DNA of 64,000 nt from Thermodesulfobacteriota bacterium (lineage in GTDB: Bacteria > Desulfobacterota > DSM-4660 > Desulfatiglandales > Desulfatiglandaceae), in NCBI GenBank assembly GCA_028278625.1, contig JANQDY010000062.1:35000-98999 (forward strand). Reading direction: 5' to 3'. The notes under the pieces are model-generated. The model saw nothing but the letters and a program-made list of their open reading frames with translations, was not told the origin of the DNA and searched no databases. Numbering within the stretch: position 1 is the stretch's first letter; each line of letters begins with the position of its first letter. Positions 1,501-13,224 of the stretch are shown piece after piece. Made by a program: the position numbers and the translations under genes.

Positions 1501-2730
1501 TCAGCGAAAATCCCGGGTCTTTTTAAGAAGCATCAGGAGCCCCGGTATGGCGATGAGGGTGCAGAAGATAAAAAAAGGCTCCCAACCGAAGTGTTTGGCC
1601 ATAAAGCCGGTGGGAGCGGAAGCGAGGACTCTCGGAATGCCCATGAGGCTGCTCAAGAGCGCATACTGGGTTGCGGTGAATTTCTTGTTGGTAATGCTGG
1701 CCATGAAAGCCACGTAAGCGGCGGTGCCCATGCCGCTCGTAAGGTTTTCGAAACCGATGACCCCTGAAAGGAGAGGAACACTGTAACCCACTCTGGCAAG
1801 AACCGCGAAACCCGCCGTGGACAAGGCCTGCAAGATACCGAAGATCCACAATGATCTCTTGATTCCCTGCCGAATCATAATGATGCCGCCCGCCAGTCCG
1901 CCGCCGATGGTGGCCCAGAAACCGAAAAGCTTCACCACCGCCCCGATTTCCGTCTTGGAAAACCCAATATCCAGATAGAAGGGGGTGGTCATGGCGCTCG
2001 CCATGGTGTCACCGATTTTGTAGAAAAGAATAAAGGCGAGCACCCACAAAGCGCCCGGCCGGGTGAAATACTCCACCAGCGGGTCGAAAACCGCTTCCCG
2101 GAGGGTTTCCGGTTTTCCCATGGGTATGGGCGGCTCAGGCGTCAGCACCGTGGTGAATACCGCCGGCAGCAAACAGGCAGCCATGATGAGGTAAACAATG
2201 GTGAAGGAGACATGATCCGCCAGGATCAGACCGCCCCCTGAGGCCAGGAGCATGCCCACCCGGTAACCATTCACGTAAAGTGAGGAACCCAGCCCCAATT
2301 CCTCGTCCGGCAGGTCCTCCCGCCGATAAGCGTCTACCACGATATCCTGGCTCGCGCTGAAAAAGGTCACCAGAAACGCCACAAAGGCGACCATCCAGGG
2401 ATTGCCGGGAGGATCGGTGAGTCCCAGTCCCGCGATGGAAAGCATAAGGGCCAGTTGGGAGATCAACAGCCATCCCCGCCGCCGGCCCAGAAAGGGCAGG
2501 GTATAACGGTCCAGAAACGGCGCCCACAGAAACTTCACCGTGTAGGGGAGGCCCACCAGCGCCATCATGCCGATGACCGCGAGATCCACCCCCGCTTCCT
2601 TCATCCACGCTTGAAGCACCGTAATGGTGAGAAGGAGCGGCAATCCGCAGGCAAATCCCATGACCAGGGCCACCAGCATGCGCCGGCTGAAAACGACCCT
2701 GATGATGGATACCGGTTGTTCAGCGGTCAT
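1501..2730 (-). CDS. ampG: AmpG-like muropeptide MFS permease
   Basis: A 409-residue inner-membrane protein of the major facilitator superfamily with about 12 hydrophobic segments. The N-terminal half contains the family signature of AmpG permeases: LPYTVKFLWAPFLDRY, followed by GRRRGWLL and later SQDIVVDAYRRE. AmpG imports anhydro-muropeptides released in cell-wall turnover for recycling. The start ATG (2730) overlaps the hdrA stop by 4 bases (ATGA), so the gene is translationally coupled as the last member of the redox operon, an odd partner for it. No beta-lactamase or other recycling gene is nearby. AmpG is the best fit; a related MFS carrier of another substrate (for example an acetyl-CoA-transporter-like protein) cannot be excluded. 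Confidence 0.85.
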   Translation of the reverse strand: MTAEQPVSIIRVVFSRRMLVALVMGFACGLPLLLTITVLQAWMKEAGVDLAVIGMMALVGLPYTVKFLWAPFLDRYTLPFLGRRRGWLLISQLALMLSIAGLGLTDPPGNPWMVAFVAFLVTFFSASQDIVVDAYRREDLPDEELGLGSSLYVNGYRVGMLLASGGGLILADHVSFTIVYLIMAACLLPAVFTTVLTPEPPIPMGKPETLREAVFDPLVEYFTRPGALWVLAFILFYKIGDTMASAMTTPFYLDIGFSKTEIGAVVKLFGFWATIGGGLAGGIIMIRQGIKRSLWIFGILQALSTAGFAVLARVGYSVPLLSGVIGFENLTSGMGTAAYVAFMASITNKKFTATQYALLSSLMGIPRVLASAPTGFMAKHFGWEPFFIFCTLIAIPGLLMLLKKTRDFR

Positions 2731-5156
2731 GGTGAGGTGAGAATTCGAACCGTCTCATCAATCTCTTCCGGTGTGACCTCATTCCTTAAAGATTCCATCC
2801 GTCTCATGACTTCCGCAAACCGCACCCCTTCGGCGGCGCTGATCCATTCAAGCTGCAGGCGTTCGGGCCGGATGCCCAGTTTTGACATCTTCTTGCGGAT
2901 TTTCAGGATCCGCTTTTCCGTCCAACGATTGGCATCAATATAATGGCAGTCGCCGATGTGACAGCCGCTGACCAAAATGACGGGGGCTCTCATCTTGAAC
3001 CCGTCCCAGATGAATTTTTCATCCACGCGACCGGAACACATGGTTCGGATCAGTCTCGCATTGGGGGGATACTGAAGTCGGGACACCCCTGCATAGTCGG
3101 CGCCCGCATATGAGCACCAGTTGCAGGCAAATACCAGGATTTTCTTCTGGGGCTCGGTTTCGAGCATGGCATGGGACTGCTGAAGAATCTGCTCATCGGT
3201 AAAATGGTTCATCACGATGGCGTCAAATCTGCACTCCGCCGCACAGGTGCCGCAACCGGCGCAGGCGGCCGTATTGACGGAAGCGGGAATTTTCCGTTTG
3301 ACATCCACGGTGATGGCATTATAGGGGCAGACCTCGGCACATTTTCCGCATATTTTGCATTTTTCCTCCATCACCACGCTGGTGATCGGTTCGGTGGTGA
3401 TTTCCCCCTTATGCATGAGGCGGATCACCCTGGCCGCCGCTGCGGAAGCCTGTGTGACGCTCTCTTTAATATCCTTGGGCCCTTCGGCGCAGCCGGCGTA
3501 GAAAACGCCCCGGGTAGCTGCGTCCACCGGCAGCAGCTTGGGATGCGCCTCCAGGAAAAAACCGTCCGGCGTCAATTGCAGTCCGAGCATTTCCTGAAGC
3601 CTTTGTGTCTTCCTGGCGGGCTTCATGCCCAGGGCGAGAACCAGCATATCAAGCTGGTGCATTTCCAGCTTGCCCGTGTTGGTATTCTCAACCGCAATGC
3701 GAAACCCTTTATTTTCATCCTCTTCCACCGAACCGGGAAGTCCGCGGATATACTTGACCCCAAGGCGGCGGCTCCGTTTATATAGATCTTCAAACCCCTT
3801 TCCAAAGGCCCGTATATCGATATAGAAGACTTTGATCTCCAGGTCCGGGTAATGTTCCTTCAGCATAAGGGTGCTTTTGACGGTATTCATGCAGCAGGTG
3901 TTGGAGCAGTAGCTACCCCCTTTTCTGGCTGATCTGGATCCCACGCACTGTACAAACCCGACGGATTTGGGGTGTTTCCGGTCCGCGGGCCTCACCAGTT
4001 CGCCCTTTGTGGGACCGCCCGCATTGATAAGCCGTTCAAATTCAATGCTGGTCAGCACGTTTTCAAAGCGGGAATAGGCGTATTCGTCCATTTCCGTGGG
4101 ATCGTACACTTCCAATCCCGTGGCCACCACGATGGTTCCCACTTTTTCCACAATCTCCTCGTCGGACATGTGAAAATCAATACACCCCTTTTCGCAGGCG
4201 TCTTTGCATTTGGCACAAACCACCGGGTTATGTCCCAAGCATTCGCCAACATTGATGACATATGACGAAGGAACTGCCTGGGGAAATGGGGAATAGATGG
4301 CGCGTCTTGAGGAGAGGCCCAAATTGAATTCATCGGGGCGGACCACCGGGCAGACAGCGGTGCAATCCCCGCATGCGGTACACTCTTTTTCGTCCACATA
4401 TCGGGCTTTTTTCAGAATGCGAATGTCAAAGTTCCCCACATATCCCTTGACATCCACCACTTCACTCATGGTGTACAGCGTGATCCTGGGATGTCGACCG
4501 ACATCCGTCATTTTCGGTCCCAGAATTCAGATGGAGCAGTCCATGGTGGGAAAGGTTTTGTCAAGCTGGGCCATCATGCCGCCGATGGTGGGGCTCTTCT
4601 CCACCAGTATCACCTGATAGCCGTTGTCGGCCAGATCCAGTGCCGCCTGAATACCGGCCACACCACCGCCGATAACCAGTGTGCGTTGGGTCAGCGGAAT
4701 GGTGTCCTCCACCAAAGGCTCAAGCAACCGAACGCGGGACACCGCCATCCGTACCAGATCACACGCTTTCTTTGTGGCGGCTTCCGGTTCCTGCATATGG
4801 ACCCAACTGCATTGCTCACGAAGGTTGGCCATTTCCAGAAGGTAAGGGTTGATGCCGGTCGACTGGAGCATCTGTTTGAATGTGGGTTCGTGAAGTCTGG
4901 GTGAGCAGGAGGCCACCACCACCCGGTCCAGGTTGTTGTCAGCGATATCGTCCTTGATTTCCTGCTGGCCCGGTTCTGAACAGGCATAGGCGATATCCTT
5001 GCTGACAACGACGCCTTCAAGACCGCCCGCAAAAGCCGATACCTTTTCACAGTCAACGGTCTGGGCGATGTTAAGACCGCAATGACAGGTATAAACGCCG
5101 ATTCTGGGATCCGTAGCAGGCGCTTCATATTTTCTCGCAGCCGCTTGTGATTTCAT
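2727..5156 (-). CDS. hdrA: heterodisulfide reductase subunit A, selenocysteine-containing, fused to MvhD
   Basis: One 809-residue protein whose reading frame is crossed by TGA at 4529-4527. The bases after the TGA stay in frame and continue the HdrA alignment without loss (DCSI-U-ILGPKM-TDVGRHP), so the TGA is read as selenocysteine (residue 210). Visible parts: Cys-rich N-terminus (CHCG 24-27, C59, C84, C116), FAD-binding GGGVAG at 163, ferredoxin cluster motif at 259-271 (CTACGDCTAVCPV), two more 4Fe-4S motifs at about 600-611 and 632-642, and a C-terminal MvhD domain from about 672 (ACNWCSYAGADYAG, then MCSGRVD and GCHIGDCHY). HdrA is the flavin subunit that splits or merges electron pairs; MvhD carries a 2Fe-2S centre linking it to a donor. 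The start ATG at 5156 has a GAGGAAACC ribosome site. An annotation pipeline would break this gene in two. Confidence 0.9.
4481..4529 (-). promoter_or_regulatory. bacterial SECIS-like element after the UGA codon of hdrA
   Basis: Directly after the in-frame TGA (4529-4527), 20 bases of spacer lead into a perfect 7-bp hairpin, GGATGTC-GGTC-GACATCC (4506-4489). A second outer pairing, CTGGGA with TCCCAG, encloses it. The loop reads GGUC, the same bases found in the apical loop of the E. coli fdhF SECIS that SelB recognises. Distance, stem and loop all fit a bacterial selenocysteine insertion element lying inside the coding region. Folding was done by eye. Confidence 0.75.
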
Positions 5157-5200
5157 GGTTTCCTCTGATATATGCTTTTGGGGTTAACGACGGTTTAACA

Positions 5201-6808: not shown

Positions 6809-9800
6809 CTATAGCAGGACTTCTTCGAGTACCTGTTCCAGATATTCCTGATTTCGATAAGGGCTGTCCGCTGCATTGGAGGGGCACACTGAAATACAAT
6901 TGCCACAACCTTTGCAGAGCGCCTCATCAACCACAGCGTGCCACCCTCCGACACCATTGGGATTAAAAGAAACGGCCCGGTAGGGGCATATTTCAATGCA
7001 GCGCCCGCATCCGCGGCACCGGTCTTCGCTCACCACCACGGTGAAGCCCTTGCTCTGCCTTGGCCCCCGTGGCATGACGGCGGCCGCCAGTGCCGCCGCG
7101 GCATGTCCGGCTTTTCGGTTTGAAATCTGAATGCCGGGGGTTGATGTCGTAAAAAGGCCCGAAATAGGCGTTGTTCCCGGATAGTGAAACGGGATGTCGG
7201 GAACCCCTTTTTTCTGCACGTTGACCTTCAGTTTCGTATTGGGAAGGCCTTTCTGGTGAACGTAGGGTACCCGGCCACTGGCCTTTTCACCCAGGATAAT
7301 GGCGCCCACCTGCATTACCTGGGAAAAATCTGCGGTTTTAACGGTAATCTGAAAATCCCCCAGGGTGCCACCGATGTCTGTGATGCGTGATCCTTCAAAG
7401 CAGTGAATATTTGGGTGCTCGATAACCCTGGTGAGCGGTTTTTCCTTCACGCCGAACATAAAAACTTCATATCCCGAGGAGGCCAGGGTCTGGGCGCTGA
7501 CAACGGCTGCCTCGGATTCGCCGATGACCGCCGTGGTGAAATTGTAATCCCGCATGGGTGACGGAAGCGGCCGCAGGTGCCTGGCCCGGTTAATGGACCG
7601 GCCGATCAATCCGTTGAATGTGTAAATGGCTGCGGATGGGTCATCCGGTAGGCGCCGCAATACCTCGCCTCTGAGATTACAGGTTTCCACCATGGCGCGA
7701 CTGATGCCGGTGCCGCGAAAGAGTGCGCGTTTGAGTCGGCTCCGCTGATCCGTGCAGGCACTGCAGACAAAATCGTGGGGACAGCAAACGCAAGAGGCCA
7801 GAACCACACGTGTGAGACCTTTTTCGCGGATGGTCCGAAGAATGCCCGCGGACCCCTCGGGGATGCAGGCGGCGGTCATGGTCTGAGCGTGGGAGATATC
7901 CTCCCTTCGGACCAGAGCCTCCACGTACCGGTCCATTTCAGGGGCCCAACCAAAGGAATCATTGCAACGGCAGACGAAGACGCCGATACGGATCTCCGGG
8001 GAGAGTTCAGGATCCGGTGGAAAAAAGGAAACTCCCTTACCTTTGGGTCTCTGGGAACCTCCTTCCAGGAGAAGCATGGCATTGGCGGCAGCGGCAAAAC
8101 CCCTGGCAACCATGGCATTCACGTCCGGTTTTGCGGCCTTGGGACCGTAGGCACGAATGACATCTTCTCCTTTAACGGAGGGTGCGGCATCGGGGTCCGC
8201 AATGATGACAACACCGGCATGCGCAACATTTTCCCTGTGTTCTTCATGATGGCGAATGGCACCAACCGCTTCGCAGGCCTCCGTACAAAGGAGACACTCG
8301 GAGCAGATGCCGCACTGAAGACACCGCTCCGATTCAAAAACCACCTGTGATTCACTGAGGCCCATGGCAACTTCCGAATGGTTGCTTTTTCTGACATTCG
8401 GTTGCTGTTCCGGCATGGTGGGTCTTGAAAGGGACGGGATCTCTTTGGGGATATCCGGATAGTCCCCGTTTTTGGGCCTTCCGGATTGGAATAGGTGCGC
8501 CATTTCGCCGCTCAGGGCTTCATGGATGGATCTGGCAGCCGCACGCCCAGCCGCCATGGATTGCACCACGGTGGTGGGGCCGGATACACCGTCGCCGGCC
8601 GCATAAAAGCCATCAATTCCGGTCTTGTATCGGTCGTCAACGCTCAGGCAACCATGTGTATTGATGACAATTCCGGACATGCAATTTGCTTTATTGGATG
8701 GGTCATTATTCATAAAAGGGCCATCCTGGCCGATGGCCACGATGGCTTCATCAAAAGGCATATCAAAGGGCTTCGCATCCGGAATGGTGACAGGCCAGGG
8801 GATGCCGTTGGCATCAGGCTCCCCAGGCTCGGTAGCCTTACATCTCAGATGTTTCAGCCGTCCGTTTTCCCCTTCAAATGATATGACCCGTGTGGCATCA
8901 ACGATTTTGACGCCTTCTTCCCTGGCGCCCTGGAGTTCGTGGGGATCGGCTGGTATGAGGTTCTCGGGAAACCAGCTCAGAAGGGTCACCCTTTTTCCAC
9001 GACGTATGAGGGTCCGGGCCAGATCGAATGCGGCGTTCCCATCACCGATGACGGCGATGTGCCGGTTGCCTGAGTCGGTTTCAGGGGATCTGTTCTGCTC
9101 GTCTCCGTTGTTTCGGTAAAACCGGGTCAGAAAAGAGAGGCAGCCCGCTACCCCTTCAAGGGTTTCACCCGGAATACCCAGTTTGCGATCCGTCCAGGCG
9201 CCCACCGTTGCCAGCACTGCCGCATACTTCTTTCTGAGTGTCTCAAGGTCATTGTTCAGATCCACGGGGTGTGAGGTCTCAAAACGGACGCCCAGATTAC
9301 GGACGTAATCAAGGTCATTATCCAAGATCCGCCTGGGCAGACGGTGGGCGCCGATGCCATAACGCAAAAGTCCCCCCGGTTTCTTTTCCTTATCAAAAAC
9401 CGTTGTTTGATAACCGAGCCTTGCAAGCTCGGCGGCAGCCGCGAGCCCCGCGGGTCCCGAACCGATGATCGCCACGGCTTCTTCTCTAAAAGGGGCCTTT
9501 GCGGGCGTTGTTTCATGGCTTTCCGATATTTCAAGGTCCGCCAGAAAACGCTTGATGTCCCGAATGGCAATTGGATCGTCCATTTCACCACGACGGCATG
9601 CTTCTTCACAGGGGTGGGTGCATATCCTGCCGCAGATGCCGGGCAGGACGTTGTCTTTTCGAACCACGTTCAGTGCTTCCGCGTAGCGGCCTGCGCGAGC
9701 CAGGGCCACGTAGCCTTGGGCGTTTACGCCTAAGGGACAGTTTGCCTGACACAGGGGCTCCTTTCTTTTTTCGACGACCGGCCTTCCGGGAATGGCATGA

Positions 9801-10210
9801 CGGCCTCCAAACTGAACAGGCGTCATTGCGTCCGGTGTGACAACCGGACAAACGGCTGCGCATCGGCCGCACAGGACGCATTGTTCGGTGTTCACATAGG
9901 TCTCCGGTTGCTCTATCCGGATGCGAAATCCCTGGGGTGAGTGCTTAATACTGGTGACACGTGCCGGAAGCATCAAACGGATATCGGTGTTCCCCAGGAG
10001 ACGGATCAGACCGGGACGATGGGCGAAATTAAAGGGTGCCCCCGAGGGGAGCCGCCATTGTTCGTCGGCCAGCTTCCGGTTCAGGTCCGCATCCCGATCC
10101 ACCAGTGTGATGGGAATACCAAGTTCTCCCAGCTTGTTGGCGGCGGCAATACCGGCCGGATTGGCGCCAATAATGACCACACTATGCAATCTTTCCTTGG
10201 AACGTTTCAT
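6809..10210 (-). CDS. GltD-type flavoprotein / HdrA-like multidomain fusion
   Basis: A 1133-residue protein with an unusual layout. Residues 10-100: FAD-type Rossmann start (IIGANPAG). 111-123: ferredoxin motif CVLCGRCAAVCPV. 150-570: complete glutamate-synthase small-subunit (GltD/NfnB-like) module with CQANCPLG at 154, CGRICTHPCEEAC at 193, FAD site GSGPAG at 250 and a nucleotide site GDGNAA at 389. 630-646: Cys-rich CLQCGICSECLLCTEAC. 741-860: an HdrA-like N-terminal Cys domain (VCRCN, ASCVCC, ETCNLRGE). 890-1000: a second, degenerate Rossmann fold. 1065-1110: two 4Fe-4S motifs. The GltD-type module binds FAD and NAD(P)H in related proteins, so this subunit probably brings pyridine nucleotides to the Hdr assembly. 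It lies 3 bases after korC and 24 before the MvhD-HdrCB gene. Confidence 0.85.
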   Translation of the reverse strand: MKRSKERLHSVVIIGANPAGIAAANKLGELGIPITLVDRDADLNRKLADEQWRLPSGAPFNFAHRPGLIRLLGNTDIRLMLPARVTSIKHSPQGFRIRIEQPETYVNTEQCVLCGRCAAVCPVVTPDAMTPVQFGGRHAIPGRPVVEKRKEPLCQANCPLGVNAQGYVALARAGRYAEALNVVRKDNVLPGICGRICTHPCEEACRRGEMDDPIAIRDIKRFLADLEISESHETTPAKAPFREEAVAIIGSGPAGLAAAAELARLGYQTTVFDKEKKPGGLLRYGIGAHRLPRRILDNDLDYVRNLGVRFETSHPVDLNNDLETLRKKYAAVLATVGAWTDRKLGIPGETLEGVAGCLSFLTRFYRNNGDEQNRSPETDSGNRHIAVIGDGNAAFDLARTLIRRGKRVTLLSWFPENLIPADPHELQGAREEGVKIVDATRVISFEGENGRLKHLRCKATEPGEPDANGIPWPVTIPDAKPFDMPFDEAIVAIGQDGPFMNNDPSNKANCMSGIVINTHGCLSVDDRYKTGIDGFYAAGDGVSGPTTVVQSMAAGRAAARSIHEALSGEMAHLFQSGRPKNGDYPDIPKEIPSLSRPTMPEQQPNVRKSNHSEVAMGLSESQVVFESERCLQCGICSECLLCTEACEAVGAIRHHEEHRENVAHAGVVIIADPDAAPSVKGEDVIRAYGPKAAKPDVNAMVARGFAAAANAMLLLEGGSQRPKGKGVSFFPPDPELSPEIRIGVFVCRCNDSFGWAPEMDRYVEALVRREDISHAQTMTAACIPEGSAGILRTIREKGLTRVVLASCVCCPHDFVCSACTDQRSRLKRALFRGTGISRAMVETCNLRGEVLRRLPDDPSAAIYTFNGLIGRSINRARHLRPLPSPMRDYNFTTAVIGESEAAVVSAQTLASSGYEVFMFGVKEKPLTRVIEHPNIHCFEGSRITDIGGTLGDFQITVKTADFSQVMQVGAIILGEKASGRVPYVHQKGLPNTKLKVNVQKKGVPDIPFHYPGTTPISGLFTTSTPGIQISNRKAGHAAAALAAAVMPRGPRQSKGFTVVVSEDRCRGCGRCIEICPYRAVSFNPNGVGGWHAVVDEALCKGCGNCISVCPSNAADSPYRNQEYLEQVLEEVLL

Positions 10211-10213
10211 CGA

Positions 10214-10825
10214 TCAGGCTCCCCTATTGCCAGATGCCCTTTTTTCCCGTCCTTTTAAAACAGCCTGGCCGTAGTCATATCCCTTGTTGAAAGCTTTGAT
10301 ATTCTTCTTCTCGGTACCTTTTGGCACCGATTCCGTGACGGCATTCTCCGCCCCTTTTACGGATATGGCACCGGTAATTGCCGTAAAAAACCCAAGCATT
10401 ATGATATTGGCCATCATTTTGTGGCCCAGTTCCTCGGCCATGCGTGTGGCGGGAATGGCAAAATATGTTTCATCACTACCCTCTTGAAATAACCTATTGG
10501 GATTCACGAGGTCCTGGTCAATGATCAGAGTGCCATTTTCTTTAATATCTTTAATGAATTTATCGAAACCTCCCTGACTCATACAAACCAGAATATCCGG
10601 ATGTCTCACATATGGATAATGGATGGCGTTGTTGCTGATGATGATCTGGGCACTGCAGGCCCCGCCGCGGGCCTCGGGCCCGTAGGCCTGTACAAGGGTG
10701 CTCTCTTTGTGGTCCCCGATAACTGCTGCTTGGCCCATAATTCGGCCGGCCAGAACAATGCCCTGGCCGCCAAATCCCGTAAAAAGAATCTCGTGCTGGT
10801 TTGGGGCAATGGTTTTGCTGGTCAT
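10214..10825 (-). CDS. korC: 2-oxoacid:ferredoxin oxidoreductase gamma subunit
   Basis: A 203-residue gamma subunit of the pyruvate/2-oxoglutarate:ferredoxin oxidoreductase family. It opens with the family hallmark LFTGFGGQGIVLAGRIMGQAA and continues with VQAYGPEARGGACSAQIIIS. An upstream in-frame extension exists, but ATG 10825 sits one base after the korB stop and begins at the conserved domain, so it is chosen as the start. Together with KorA, KorB and KorD it forms the enzyme that oxidatively decarboxylates a 2-oxoacid to an acyl-CoA and reduces ferredoxin, or runs the reverse carboxylation. Symbols assume 2-oxoglutarate specificity, which sequence alone does not prove. Confidence 0.9.
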   Translation of the reverse strand: MTSKTIAPNQHEILFTGFGGQGIVLAGRIMGQAAVIGDHKESTLVQAYGPEARGGACSAQIIISNNAIHYPYVRHPDILVCMSQGGFDKFIKDIKENGTLIIDQDLVNPNRLFQEGSDETYFAIPATRMAEELGHKMMANIIMLGFFTAITGAISVKGAENAVTESVPKGTEKKNIKAFNKGYDYGQAVLKGREKRASGNRGA

Positions 10826-10826
10826 A

Positions 10827-11681
10827 TCATGCGGCCTTTTCTTCCTCAAAAAGTTCAGGTGGGCGACAGGTGGCATCGTAACGGTCGATGCAGGTGGGAC
10901 GTTCAATATCCACGAATTTTCCCAGTATGACGCCCCGTTCAAAATCGATGTCCAGTTCCGATGGGTGGGTGTCATTTTTGATGATGGTCTTTTCCTGGTA
11001 AAGCCGCAACGAGTCCAGGGCCTTTTCCTTGTTTCTTCGGCCGAAATTGACCGGGCAGGGTGAAAGGATTTCCACAAAAGCGAAACCGCGGTTCAGTAGT
11101 GCGTCTTTAATTGATTCCGTCATTTCGCGGGTATGGAGAATGGTCCAGCGTGAGACGTAGGTGGCCCCGGAGGCATATGCCATAAGCGGCAGATTAAAAG
11201 GACCGTCGGGATTGCCGGCAGGTGTGGTGGTGGTTTTGGAGTCCAGGGGGGTTGTGGCCGCCACCTGGCCCCCGGTCATGCCGTAATTCAGGTTGTTGAC
11301 GCAGACCACGGTGATATCCACATTTCGACGGGCGCCGTGAATAAAGTGGTTGCCACCGATGGCAAACAGATCTCCGTCGCCGCTGAATACGACCACGTTC
11401 AGTTCAGGATTTGCCAGCTTCAATCCCGTTGCAAAGGGGATGGCCCGGCCATGGGTGGCATGGTAAGAGTCCAGCATCACATATCCGGCGCCTCTCGCGC
11501 TACAGCCGATACCAGAAACCATGACGGTCTTTTCAAGATCGATGCCGCTGGCCTTCAGGGCAGTGAGGCAGGCGGCAAACGCTGTTCCGATGCCACAGCC
11601 GGGACACCAGATGTGAGGGATGCGATCCGTTCGAAGCAGATCATCCAAGGGATGTCGTATTTGGCTTTTAGTGGAGGTCAT
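10827..11681 (-). CDS. korB: 2-oxoglutarate:ferredoxin oxidoreductase beta subunit (TPP-binding)
   Basis: A 284-residue thiamine-diphosphate-binding subunit. Visible features are CPGCGIG near residue 28 (cluster-ligand Cys), the TPP signature GDGD...NN (GDGDLFAIGGNHF through VCVNNLNYGMTGGQ), and the conserved ATTPLDSKTTTTPAG. The YGMTGGQ-TTP pattern is typical of KorB-type enzymes. This subunit holds the catalytic centre where the 2-oxoacid is decarboxylated. A GGGAGAG ribosome site lies just ahead of ATG 11681. The gene lies between korA (47 bases upstream) and korC (1 base downstream), the usual order for a kor operon. Confidence 0.93.
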   Translation of the reverse strand: MTSTKSQIRHPLDDLLRTDRIPHIWCPGCGIGTAFAACLTALKASGIDLEKTVMVSGIGCSARGAGYVMLDSYHATHGRAIPFATGLKLANPELNVVVFSGDGDLFAIGGNHFIHGARRNVDITVVCVNNLNYGMTGGQVAATTPLDSKTTTTPAGNPDGPFNLPLMAYASGATYVSRWTILHTREMTESIKDALLNRGFAFVEILSPCPVNFGRRNKEKALDSLRLYQEKTIIKNDTHPSELDIDFERGVILGKFVDIERPTCIDRYDATCRPPELFEEEKAA

Positions 11682-11728: not shown

Positions 11729-12874
11729 TCAGAATGCCGTCTTGAGTGTTTCAAGGACACGGTCCGGCGTGATTATGGTGCCGCCGGCATGGCCTACCAG
11801 AAAGCAGGGTGCCTGTCCCCGTGAAGCCCGTTCAACTTCCAGATGTATCTGGCCCAGGTTAATTTCCACGGTAACAAAGCCTTTGACACGGGCCGCAAGC
11901 TTCCGGATGAGTTCCTCCGGAAAGGGCCAGACGGTGATCAGTCGAAGAAGGCCAACCCGGATGCCCTGTTCACGTGCTTCATCCACGGCGGCAAGGCTGG
12001 TTCTGGAAGAAACACCGTAGGAAACGATCACAATTTCCGCATCATCGAGACGGTAGCTCTCCGTTCTTATAATGTCCTTCAGGTTGTTCCGGATTTTACC
12101 AACGAGATGCGTCATCATGGCTTCCTGGCCTTCCACCGACATGTCGGGATACCCTCTCTCATCGTGGGTCAACCCGGTTACGTGGATCCGGTACCCTTCA
12201 CCGGCGATGGCCATGGGCGGAACGCCGTTTTTACCCGGAGCAAACGGTTTAAATCTGTCCTTCCGTCCGCTGGCTCTGGGCCGGGAGACCGTGTGAATGG
12301 CATGAGCCTCGGGAATGACGACCCGTTCGCTCAGGTGACCGATCATTTCATCCGTCATGATCAGAACCGGCACGCGGTAGGTTTCACTGAGGTTGAAGGC
12401 ATGAATGGTCTGGTAAAAGATTTCCTGAGGGGAGGCAGGGGCCATGGCGATGATTTCATAATGACCATGGGAACCCCAGCGGGCCTGCATCATGTCTCCC
12501 TGGGCTCCCAGGGTGGGAAGTCCCGTTGACGGTCCGGCCCTTTGAACATCCACCACAACGCAAGGTGTTTCAGTGCAGACGGCCAAGCCGATGTTCTCCA
12601 GCATCAAGCTGAGTCCGGGTCCGGAGGTGGCCGTCATGCTTTTGACGCCGGCGCAGGACGCTCCCACGATAGAGGCCATGGCAGCAATCTCATCCTCCAT
12701 CTGGATAAATGTACCGCCCACTTCGGGAAGTCTTTCGGAAATGTGTTCGGCGATTTCAGTTGCGGGCGTAATGGGGTAACCGCCGAAAAAACGGCAGCCT
12801 GCCGCCACCGCCCCTTCGGCACAGGCCTCGTCGCCCGTCATGAAATGCTCACCGGTCAGAACTGCGGGTCTCAT
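11729..12874 (-). CDS. korA: 2-oxoglutarate:ferredoxin oxidoreductase alpha subunit
   Basis: A 381-residue alpha subunit (pyrimidine-binding plus transketolase C-terminal-like domains). It shows the family pattern GGYPITPATEIAEHIS near residue 30, the glutamate-containing FIQMEDEIAAMASIVGAS, and TSGPGLSLM. The short form without a fused gamma domain matches KorA of bacteria with four-subunit enzymes. Its partners are korB and korC downstream and the ferredoxin korD upstream. The start ATG 12874 is preceded by GGAGGCGAA. Substrate could be 2-oxoglutarate or a branched-chain 2-oxoacid (VorB is closely related). Confidence 0.92.
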   Translation of the reverse strand: MRPAVLTGEHFMTGDEACAEGAVAAGCRFFGGYPITPATEIAEHISERLPEVGGTFIQMEDEIAAMASIVGASCAGVKSMTATSGPGLSLMLENIGLAVCTETPCVVVDVQRAGPSTGLPTLGAQGDMMQARWGSHGHYEIIAMAPASPQEIFYQTIHAFNLSETYRVPVLIMTDEMIGHLSERVVIPEAHAIHTVSRPRASGRKDRFKPFAPGKNGVPPMAIAGEGYRIHVTGLTHDERGYPDMSVEGQEAMMTHLVGKIRNNLKDIIRTESYRLDDAEIVIVSYGVSSRTSLAAVDEAREQGIRVGLLRLITVWPFPEELIRKLAARVKGFVTVEINLGQIHLEVERASRGQAPCFLVGHAGGTIITPDRVLETLKTAF

Positions 12875-12906: not shown

Positions 12907-13167
12907 TTAGTCCGTGTCTTCCACCGAATATATGGCAAATTCAGGGCATATGATTTCACAATAATGGCAGTTGACACATTCACCCGGTTTGACCACAAAA
13001 GGGGGATGGTAACCTTTTGTGTTAAACCGCTTGGAGAATTCAAGCACCTTTCTTGGACAGAATTCGATGCAGAATCCACAGCCTTTGCACCGGTCTTCAA
13101 GAATATGCACGATACCGATGGTGGTCTGGATTTCTTCCGAATCTAATGGAACCCGCCATAAAACCAT
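12907..13167 (-). CDS. korD: 2-oxoacid:ferredoxin oxidoreductase delta subunit, 2x[4Fe-4S] ferredoxin
   Basis: An 86-residue ferredoxin-type subunit with two 4Fe-4S motifs, CKGCGFCIEFCP and CVNCHYCEIICP, and the KorD-typical phrase FCPRKVLEFSKRFNTKGYHPP. It passes electrons out of the KorABC core. A longer version using a TTG at 13188 is possible, but ATG 13167 is preferred because GAGG lies nine bases ahead of it. First gene of the eight-gene redox operon; the leader would be about 50 bases if transcription starts near 13218. Confidence 0.92.
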   Translation of the reverse strand: MVLWRVPLDSEEIQTTIGIVHILEDRCKGCGFCIEFCPRKVLEFSKRFNTKGYHPPFVVKPGECVNCHYCEIICPEFAIYSVEDTD

Positions 13168-13224
13168 TGGGTTATTCCTCGAATTCAAACGCCGTTTTTT
13201 TCGTTGCTAATATAAATGTGGTAA

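Follow-up and report, generated by a model that had tools for sequence, protein, structure and literature searches.

The window analysed here, a 64,000-nucleotide stretch of a Thermodesulfobacteriota contig, encodes on its minus strand an HdrA2-type protein whose reading frame is broken by an in-frame TGA, and this TGA is very probably a selenocysteine (Sec) codon (probability of roughly 0.93). In the mechanism that we propose, SelB loaded with Sec-tRNA-Sec would bind a GGUC-loop hairpin located 27 nt downstream of the UGA, and Sec would be inserted at residue 210 of an 809-residue HdrA2—the putative FAD/Fe–S subunit of an electron-bifurcating heterodisulfide-reductase-type complex encoded together with a 2-oxoacid:ferredoxin oxidoreductase. 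A UGA read as Sec in HdrA, with a SECIS element inside the coding region, is what a first-pass annotation of this DNA had suggested, and it stands as the best reading, supported by the codon, the conserved RNA, the exchange between Sec and Cys among homologues and the Sec machinery of relatives. Sec insertion in the source organism itself, as well as the partners and the reaction of the enzyme, we infer from sequence comparison. The features of the locus are collected in Table 1.

Table 1. Predicted features of the hdrA2 locus, with positions counted over the whole window.
Feature	Position	Strand	Remarks
hdrA2 CDS	2727..5156	(-)	809 residues, Sec predicted at 210; ATG at 5156, frame broken by TGA at 4529-4527, continuing to stop codon 2729-2727; NF040770 1204 bits
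In-frame UGA, proposed Sec210 (C-x-x-U)	4527..4529	(-)	TGA in homologous loci; Cys in database proteins
Candidate bacterial SECIS hairpin	4489..4506	(-)	7-bp stem, GGUC loop 4499-4496, 27 nt UGA-to-loop
AGAGGA, likely ribosome-binding site of hdrA2	5161..5166	(-)	read directly from the sequence
MvhD(FlpD)-HdrC-HdrB-like fusion, 527 aa	5201..6784	(-)	FlpD, Fer4, CCG domains
GltD-like NAD(P)/FAD protein, 1133 aa	6809..10210	(-)	HdrA-type N-terminal domain from residue 741
2-oxoacid:ferredoxin oxidoreductase gamma subunit (KorC-like)	10214..11077	(-)	PF01558
KorB-like beta subunit	10827..11681	(-)	PF02775
KorA-like alpha subunit	11729..12874	(-)	PF01855, PF17147; PRK08659 570 bits, cut-off 411
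KorD-like ferredoxin subunit	12907..13188	(-)	Fer4 domains

Once the TGA is read through, the frame yields a protein with a single U, at position 210 within MDCSIUILGPKM (DCSIU, a C-x-x-U motif), and the minus-strand context of the codon is ATGGACTGCTCCATC-TGA-ATTCTGGGACCG; the initial description of a TGA that breaks an otherwise open HdrA frame at a C-x-x-U motif is therefore borne out. Under the standard code, the same frame falls into ORFs of 209 aa (5156-4527) and 594 aa (4511-2727), just the two truncated genes that had been expected from automatic annotation. Against the NCBIfam HdrA2 profile (NF040770), the full read-through protein scored 1204.3 bits (cut-off 1100), and the two standard-code pieces scored 327 bits (profile positions 1-192) and 844 bits (199-776). 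The earlier identification as HdrA was thus sound and can be refined to the HdrA2 family. Pfam searches placed an FAD/Rossmann motif, ferredoxin domains and a fused FlpD/MvhD domain on the protein. Across the window, a mechanical list gave 47 TGA read-through candidates (at least 25 codons on each side; 140 in all), three of which have a SECIS-like stem that is free of breaks and folds at -7.5 kcal/mol or below: the hdrA2 TGA and those at 4693 and 14904. The latter two were rejected, as they lie in another frame inside hdrA or antisense to a longer ORF, and none of the 46 further read-through TGAs in the window has a qualifying hairpin in its own frame. ARAGORN found no tRNA within the window.

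The codon recurs widely among relatives. TGA was present at the position in 45 of 48 distinct homologous loci (60-91% identical), the other three carrying a Cys codon (two TGT, one TGC)—a comparison among sequences that are related rather than independent. These 48 loci were obtained by reducing 79 matches, excluding those below 55% identity or not spanning residues 200-235, and combine an initial genome scan (the best 80 of 121 loci were kept) with loci from the family and class of Delta proteobacterium NaphS2. In the close set (L001-L021 and L025), all 22 loci have TGA at the codon, with 62-91% identity over at least 400 residues. Among the best 120 of 7999 protein-database homologues, Cys occupied the position in 81 of the 81 proteins that span it; in the remaining 39, the sequence begins only downstream of the codon, at aligned residue 216 in 38 cases. 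Database proteins lack Sec at this codon because gene callers stop at TGA, so full-length Sec forms are invisible there, and the 81 of 81 speaks for tolerance of Cys rather than for its frequency. With these proteins and the three Cys-codon loci, the earlier expectation that homologues have Cys where this gene has TGA holds. Standard gene calling likewise splits hdrA2, and the homologues that begin after the codon indicate that these bacteria carry a wrongly annotated electron-bifurcating system.

A tree was built by a quick method from 42 Sec and 21 Cys rows, after 19 of the 81 Cys proteins had been selected and all rows with fewer than 700 aligned residues removed. It required six state switches, five of them forced by well-supported branches; in a 2006 count, HdrA was credited with two Cys-to-Sec events, on our reading of the table (PMC1794560). 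The window gene grouped with those of MASpbin.1 and NaphS2, a placement that adds to the original assignment. One genome (G060, carrying locus L170) encodes two HdrA2 proteins, one of Sec type (79%) and one of Cys type (67%), as would be fitting if the latter replaced the former when selenium is limiting. TGA also stands at this column in many more distant HdrA paralogues, such as L038:3187 (DCAMUIISPKL). Their hairpin lies in another register (CUGGUCG-AGGU-CGGCCGG), which suggests that the SECIS position differs between HdrA groups.

Downstream of the codon, the 7-bp hairpin with a GGUC loop that the first-pass annotation had pointed out was confirmed at 4506-4489: it reads GGATGTC-GGTC-GACATCC, begins 20 bases after the TGA and has a folding energy of -9.4 kcal/mol for the hairpin alone. 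The published bacterial SECIS model, as laid out in the consulted text of PMC13188914, calls for a loop of 3-9 nt, a stem of 4-16 bp, a G in the first two positions of the loop, a distance of 16-37 nt between UGA and loop and a minimum free energy of at most -7.5 kcal/mol. With a loop of 4, a stem of 7, GG, a distance of 27 nt and -9.4 kcal/mol, the hairpin lies within all of these limits, as computed with our own script. When the gene was recoded synonymously at random, at least six of the seven pairs arose in 18% of trials and all seven in 2.5%, and some SECIS-like qualifying hairpin appeared in 134 of 2000; the minimum-energy fold of 60 nt was a structure other than the conserved hairpin, with a weak signal (z of -1.35). 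In the window sequence alone, the hairpin is therefore only moderately above chance. A long alternative fold, in which bases near the UGA pair with bases behind the hairpin, was rejected: its upstream CTGGG occurs in only 8 of 23 aligned Sec-type genes and is absent from the others, so conservation does not extend to this fold. No Rfam family matched within the window at its gathering score, and around the codon there were just three chance-level matches (E 4.8-8.6).

Across relatives, the hairpin appears decisively above chance. Among 46 Sec-type genes, the GGTC loop was invariant (46/46) and at least six of the seven pairs were kept in all, with seven of seven in 40; the varying inner pair (29-36) was U-A in 32 genes, C-G in seven, U-G in six and unpaired in one, and the bottom pair was open in five. 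Two of the hairpins (L010 and L141) fold at -7.0 kcal/mol, above the published limit of -7.5. In 20 distinct rows, 97.9% of the pairs form; shifting the partner strand by 1-3 columns lowers this to 24-57%. The covariation, confined to one pair of the hairpin, gave a score reached by 7 of 500 shuffles, and the count of one doubly changed pair was reached by 342 of 500. Moreover, of the 434 conserved codons compared (those for Met and Trp excluded), just three had zero synonymous entropy—D218, G220 and H222, all in the hairpin—and codons 217-222 were the quietest of 381 six-codon windows in the 46 genes. We take the hairpin to be selected as RNA, and the comparative set to be a clean case of RNA-level selection within a coding sequence.

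The Cys-type genes complete this picture. In L170, the same peptide ILGPKMTDVGRHP is written in different codons and three of the seven pairs are kept; in L140 and L074, four are kept. The hairpin is hence kept in 46 of 46 Sec-type genes (at least six pairs) and lost in three of three Cys-type genes (three to four pairs), the Cys-type DNA control comprising just these three, of which L074 was matched over a short stretch and L140 is long-branched. In a wider set of 45-nt folds, the mean energy was -8.0 kcal/mol for Cys-type (33 genes) versus -10.8 for Sec-type (64 genes), and the contrast between the two types lies in the conserved hairpin and not in folding as such.

The machinery for Sec insertion was surveyed in 21 genomes, which carry the close loci other than L010, and in 14 control genomes. 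Over the cut-off, selB was found in 18 relatives, selA in 19 and selD in 17, compared with 2, 1 and 2 controls, respectively, and 16 of the relatives' 17 selD genes contain an in-frame TGA of their own. A canonical tRNA-Sec (97-99 nt, UCA, G73) was recovered in 11 of the 21 relatives by combining Rfam, ARAGORN and the discriminator base, including G001 and G004, two of the four nearest. NaphS2 (G002) has selA, selB and selD; the same tRNA screen found no tRNA-Sec in NaphS2 or in G003. Such absences mean little, since the completeness of these genomes is not reported. Genes for selABCD are present in the relatives, with incomplete recovery in some drafts. The Rfam model RF01852 matched in all 14 control genomes at E 1e-3 and was over its cut-off in five, and several of its matches were discarded as tRNA-Sec: by ARAGORN, L182 and L189 are tRNA-Trp, L184 and L188 are tRNA-Ser, and L183 is none. 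The match in G003 and the second matches in G005, G009, G017 and G018 were also set aside, being selC*-like by their U73 discriminator, which marks selC* (role from PMC7609411).

These data bear on three other ways of explaining the TGA. If it were a true stop and HdrA were made as two polypeptides, the second piece could start from the ATG at 4511 to give the 594-aa protein, six bases downstream of a GGGA that might act as a weak ribosome-binding site, and many such pieces do exist in databases, though gene callers would produce them either way. However, the five codons between the TGA and this ATG keep I, L, G, P and K in 46 genes while varying synonymously, and so are translated; the break would fall inside the FAD domain, and full-length Cys homologues are common. 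We regard a split gene as highly improbable. A sequencing or assembly error in a Cys codon has a still smaller, practically negligible chance: TGA is indeed one base from TGT or TGC, but it recurs in the 45 of 48 distinct loci from other assemblies, and the SECIS hairpin is absent from the three Cys-type genes. Read error, an outcome that the earlier annotation had named as fatal to its proposal, is thereby rejected in practice.

Somewhat less remote, yet still quite unlikely, is that the UGA is read as Cys, always or at low selenium, by a selC* tRNA-Cys(UCA) together with a second SelB (SelB*). Such a system—selC* with selB*, and also cysS*—has been described in reviews, for deltaproteobacterial orders, as decoding Sec UGA as Cys (PMC7609411, PMC11415595). 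In 4 of the 21 relatives (G003, G005, G009 and G017), 92-nt U73 UCA tRNAs share a contig with a second selB-like gene, the one in G005 having the A1:U72 pair described in PMC7609411, and G018 has a GCA-anticodon version of the selC*-like tRNA (loci of these tRNAs and second selB genes in the five genomes: L084, L088, L185, L186, L187, L172 and L173). Yet in G001 and G004, where a canonical tRNA-Sec (G73) and one selB over the cut-off were found and nothing matches the G003 selC*, hdrA has the same TGA and hairpin, and the second selB of G003 reads as frame-broken in the draft, with an internal TAG. Since selC* as described would act on the UGA that serves for Sec, probably through one and the same SECIS, it would modify Sec decoding rather than replace it. 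Sec decoding is thus the base case, and Cys substitution may modify it in some relatives.

The N-terminal cluster of HdrA is of the [4Fe-4S] type. With phmmer, HdrA2 aligned to chain A of the solved structure 5odc over query residues 16-665 (E 3.5e-235); U210 falls on residue 197 of that chain with no gap nearby, and six of the seven N-terminal-domain Cys of the chain are kept in HdrA2. A comparative study states that Cys197 of HdrA serves as a ligand to the N-terminal Fe-S cluster of the opposite protomer, in the ferredoxin branch, and that where HdrA genes occur in tandem, one supplies the N-terminal domain and the other Cys197 (PMC9012536). The alignment of U210 with this inter-protomer ligand suggests that Sec may be an Fe-S ligand: like Cys197, Sec210 would reach across the dimer interface to ligate the N-terminal cluster of the partner HdrA. 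We tentatively extend this idea, as one of several possibilities and not the favoured outcome, to a natural selenolate Fe-S ligand across HdrA-type protomers in the low-potential (ferredoxin) branch of the electron-bifurcating complex, in which the GltD-fused paralogue (6809-10210) may serve as acceptor and selC*/selB* relatives could tune the codon between Sec and Cys by selenium supply. In the open-licence literature, no report of a natural Sec ligand of an Fe-S cluster was identified, and selenium as a ligand of an electron-transfer Fe-S cluster is a testable idea. It is conceivable, at rather low odds, that Sec is inserted as proposed and U210 forms a redox-active C-x-x-U selenylsulfide instead of ligating a cluster. 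C-x-x-U is a common thiol-redox selenoprotein motif (PMC1794560), and a 2026 review classes HdrA (NF040770) as CxxU (PMC13188914); the ligand role of the aligned Cys197 and the retention of the six N-terminal-domain Cys weigh against a selenylsulfide.

Selenoprotein forms of HdrA are already known from Syntrophobacter, Syntrophus, D. autotrophicum and Desulfococcus multivorans (PMC1794560, PMC2702500, PMC5109826), and the gene described here is a further member of the deltaproteobacterial group. As in the window, the genes of Syntrophobacter fumaroxidans, D. autotrophicum HRM2 (hdrA1 and hdrA2) and D. multivorans combine an in-frame UGA, CxxU and sel machinery, and a SECIS is stated for the HdrA of Desulfococcus multivorans (PMC5109826), as found in hdrA2 here. 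They differ in species and in context, the operons described in the consulted texts being linked to frh/mvh hydrogenase genes, whereas korDABC lies upstream here. The locus of Desulforapulum autotrophicum (L017) has the same kor-linked arrangement as the window, and one of the described genes may be that of L017. HdrA of Methanococcales, Methanopyrus and Asgard archaea shares the family and Sec with HdrA2, but archaeal SECIS elements lie most often in the 3'-UTR (PMC13188914, PMC11227280). A hairpin inside the gene is for this reason the bacterial arrangement, and an Asgard locus (L030) that has the TGA and no local hairpin (-2.1 kcal/mol) is as expected. The methanogen precedent cited in the first-pass annotation stands, with the correction that Sec-HdrA is known from deltaproteobacteria as well. 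Chain A of 5odc, from HdrABC-MvhAGD, is printed with Cys at 197 (the tool might print Sec so too); its MvhD is a separate chain, whereas HdrA2 has MvhD fused.

The hdrA2 gene belongs to a putative operon in the order korD-A-B-C, the 1133-aa GltD-like gene, MvhD-HdrCB and hdrA2, and this arrangement is conserved: at an identity of at least 45%, MvhD-HdrCB lies on the hdrA2 locus in 18 of the 22 close loci and the 1133-aa gene in 17, neither being found at that threshold in the four Chloroflexota loci (L018-L020 and L025). The true start of the KorC-like gene is probably downstream of the listed TTG, since its domain begins at residue 103. From the gene neighbourhood, electron bifurcation would take place between a 2-oxoacid route, NAD(P)H and an HdrB-type substrate. 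Aligned with HdrA2, the 1133-aa protein misses 26 residues over the Cys197 segment (25% identity, with uncertain gap placement). A paralogue that has an HdrA N-terminal domain and lacks this segment leads to the hypothesis that Sec210 reaches the cluster of a partner, perhaps that of the paralogue, which makes the 1133-aa protein a possible heterodimer partner of HdrA2; a homodimer is equally possible because HdrA2 keeps its own N-terminal domain. At its 3' end, hdrA2 shares an ATGA (2727-2730) with an MFS transporter gene, the stop codon of the one overlapping the start codon of the other, and a homologue of this transporter also follows hdrA2 in 5 of the 22 loci (L002-L006).
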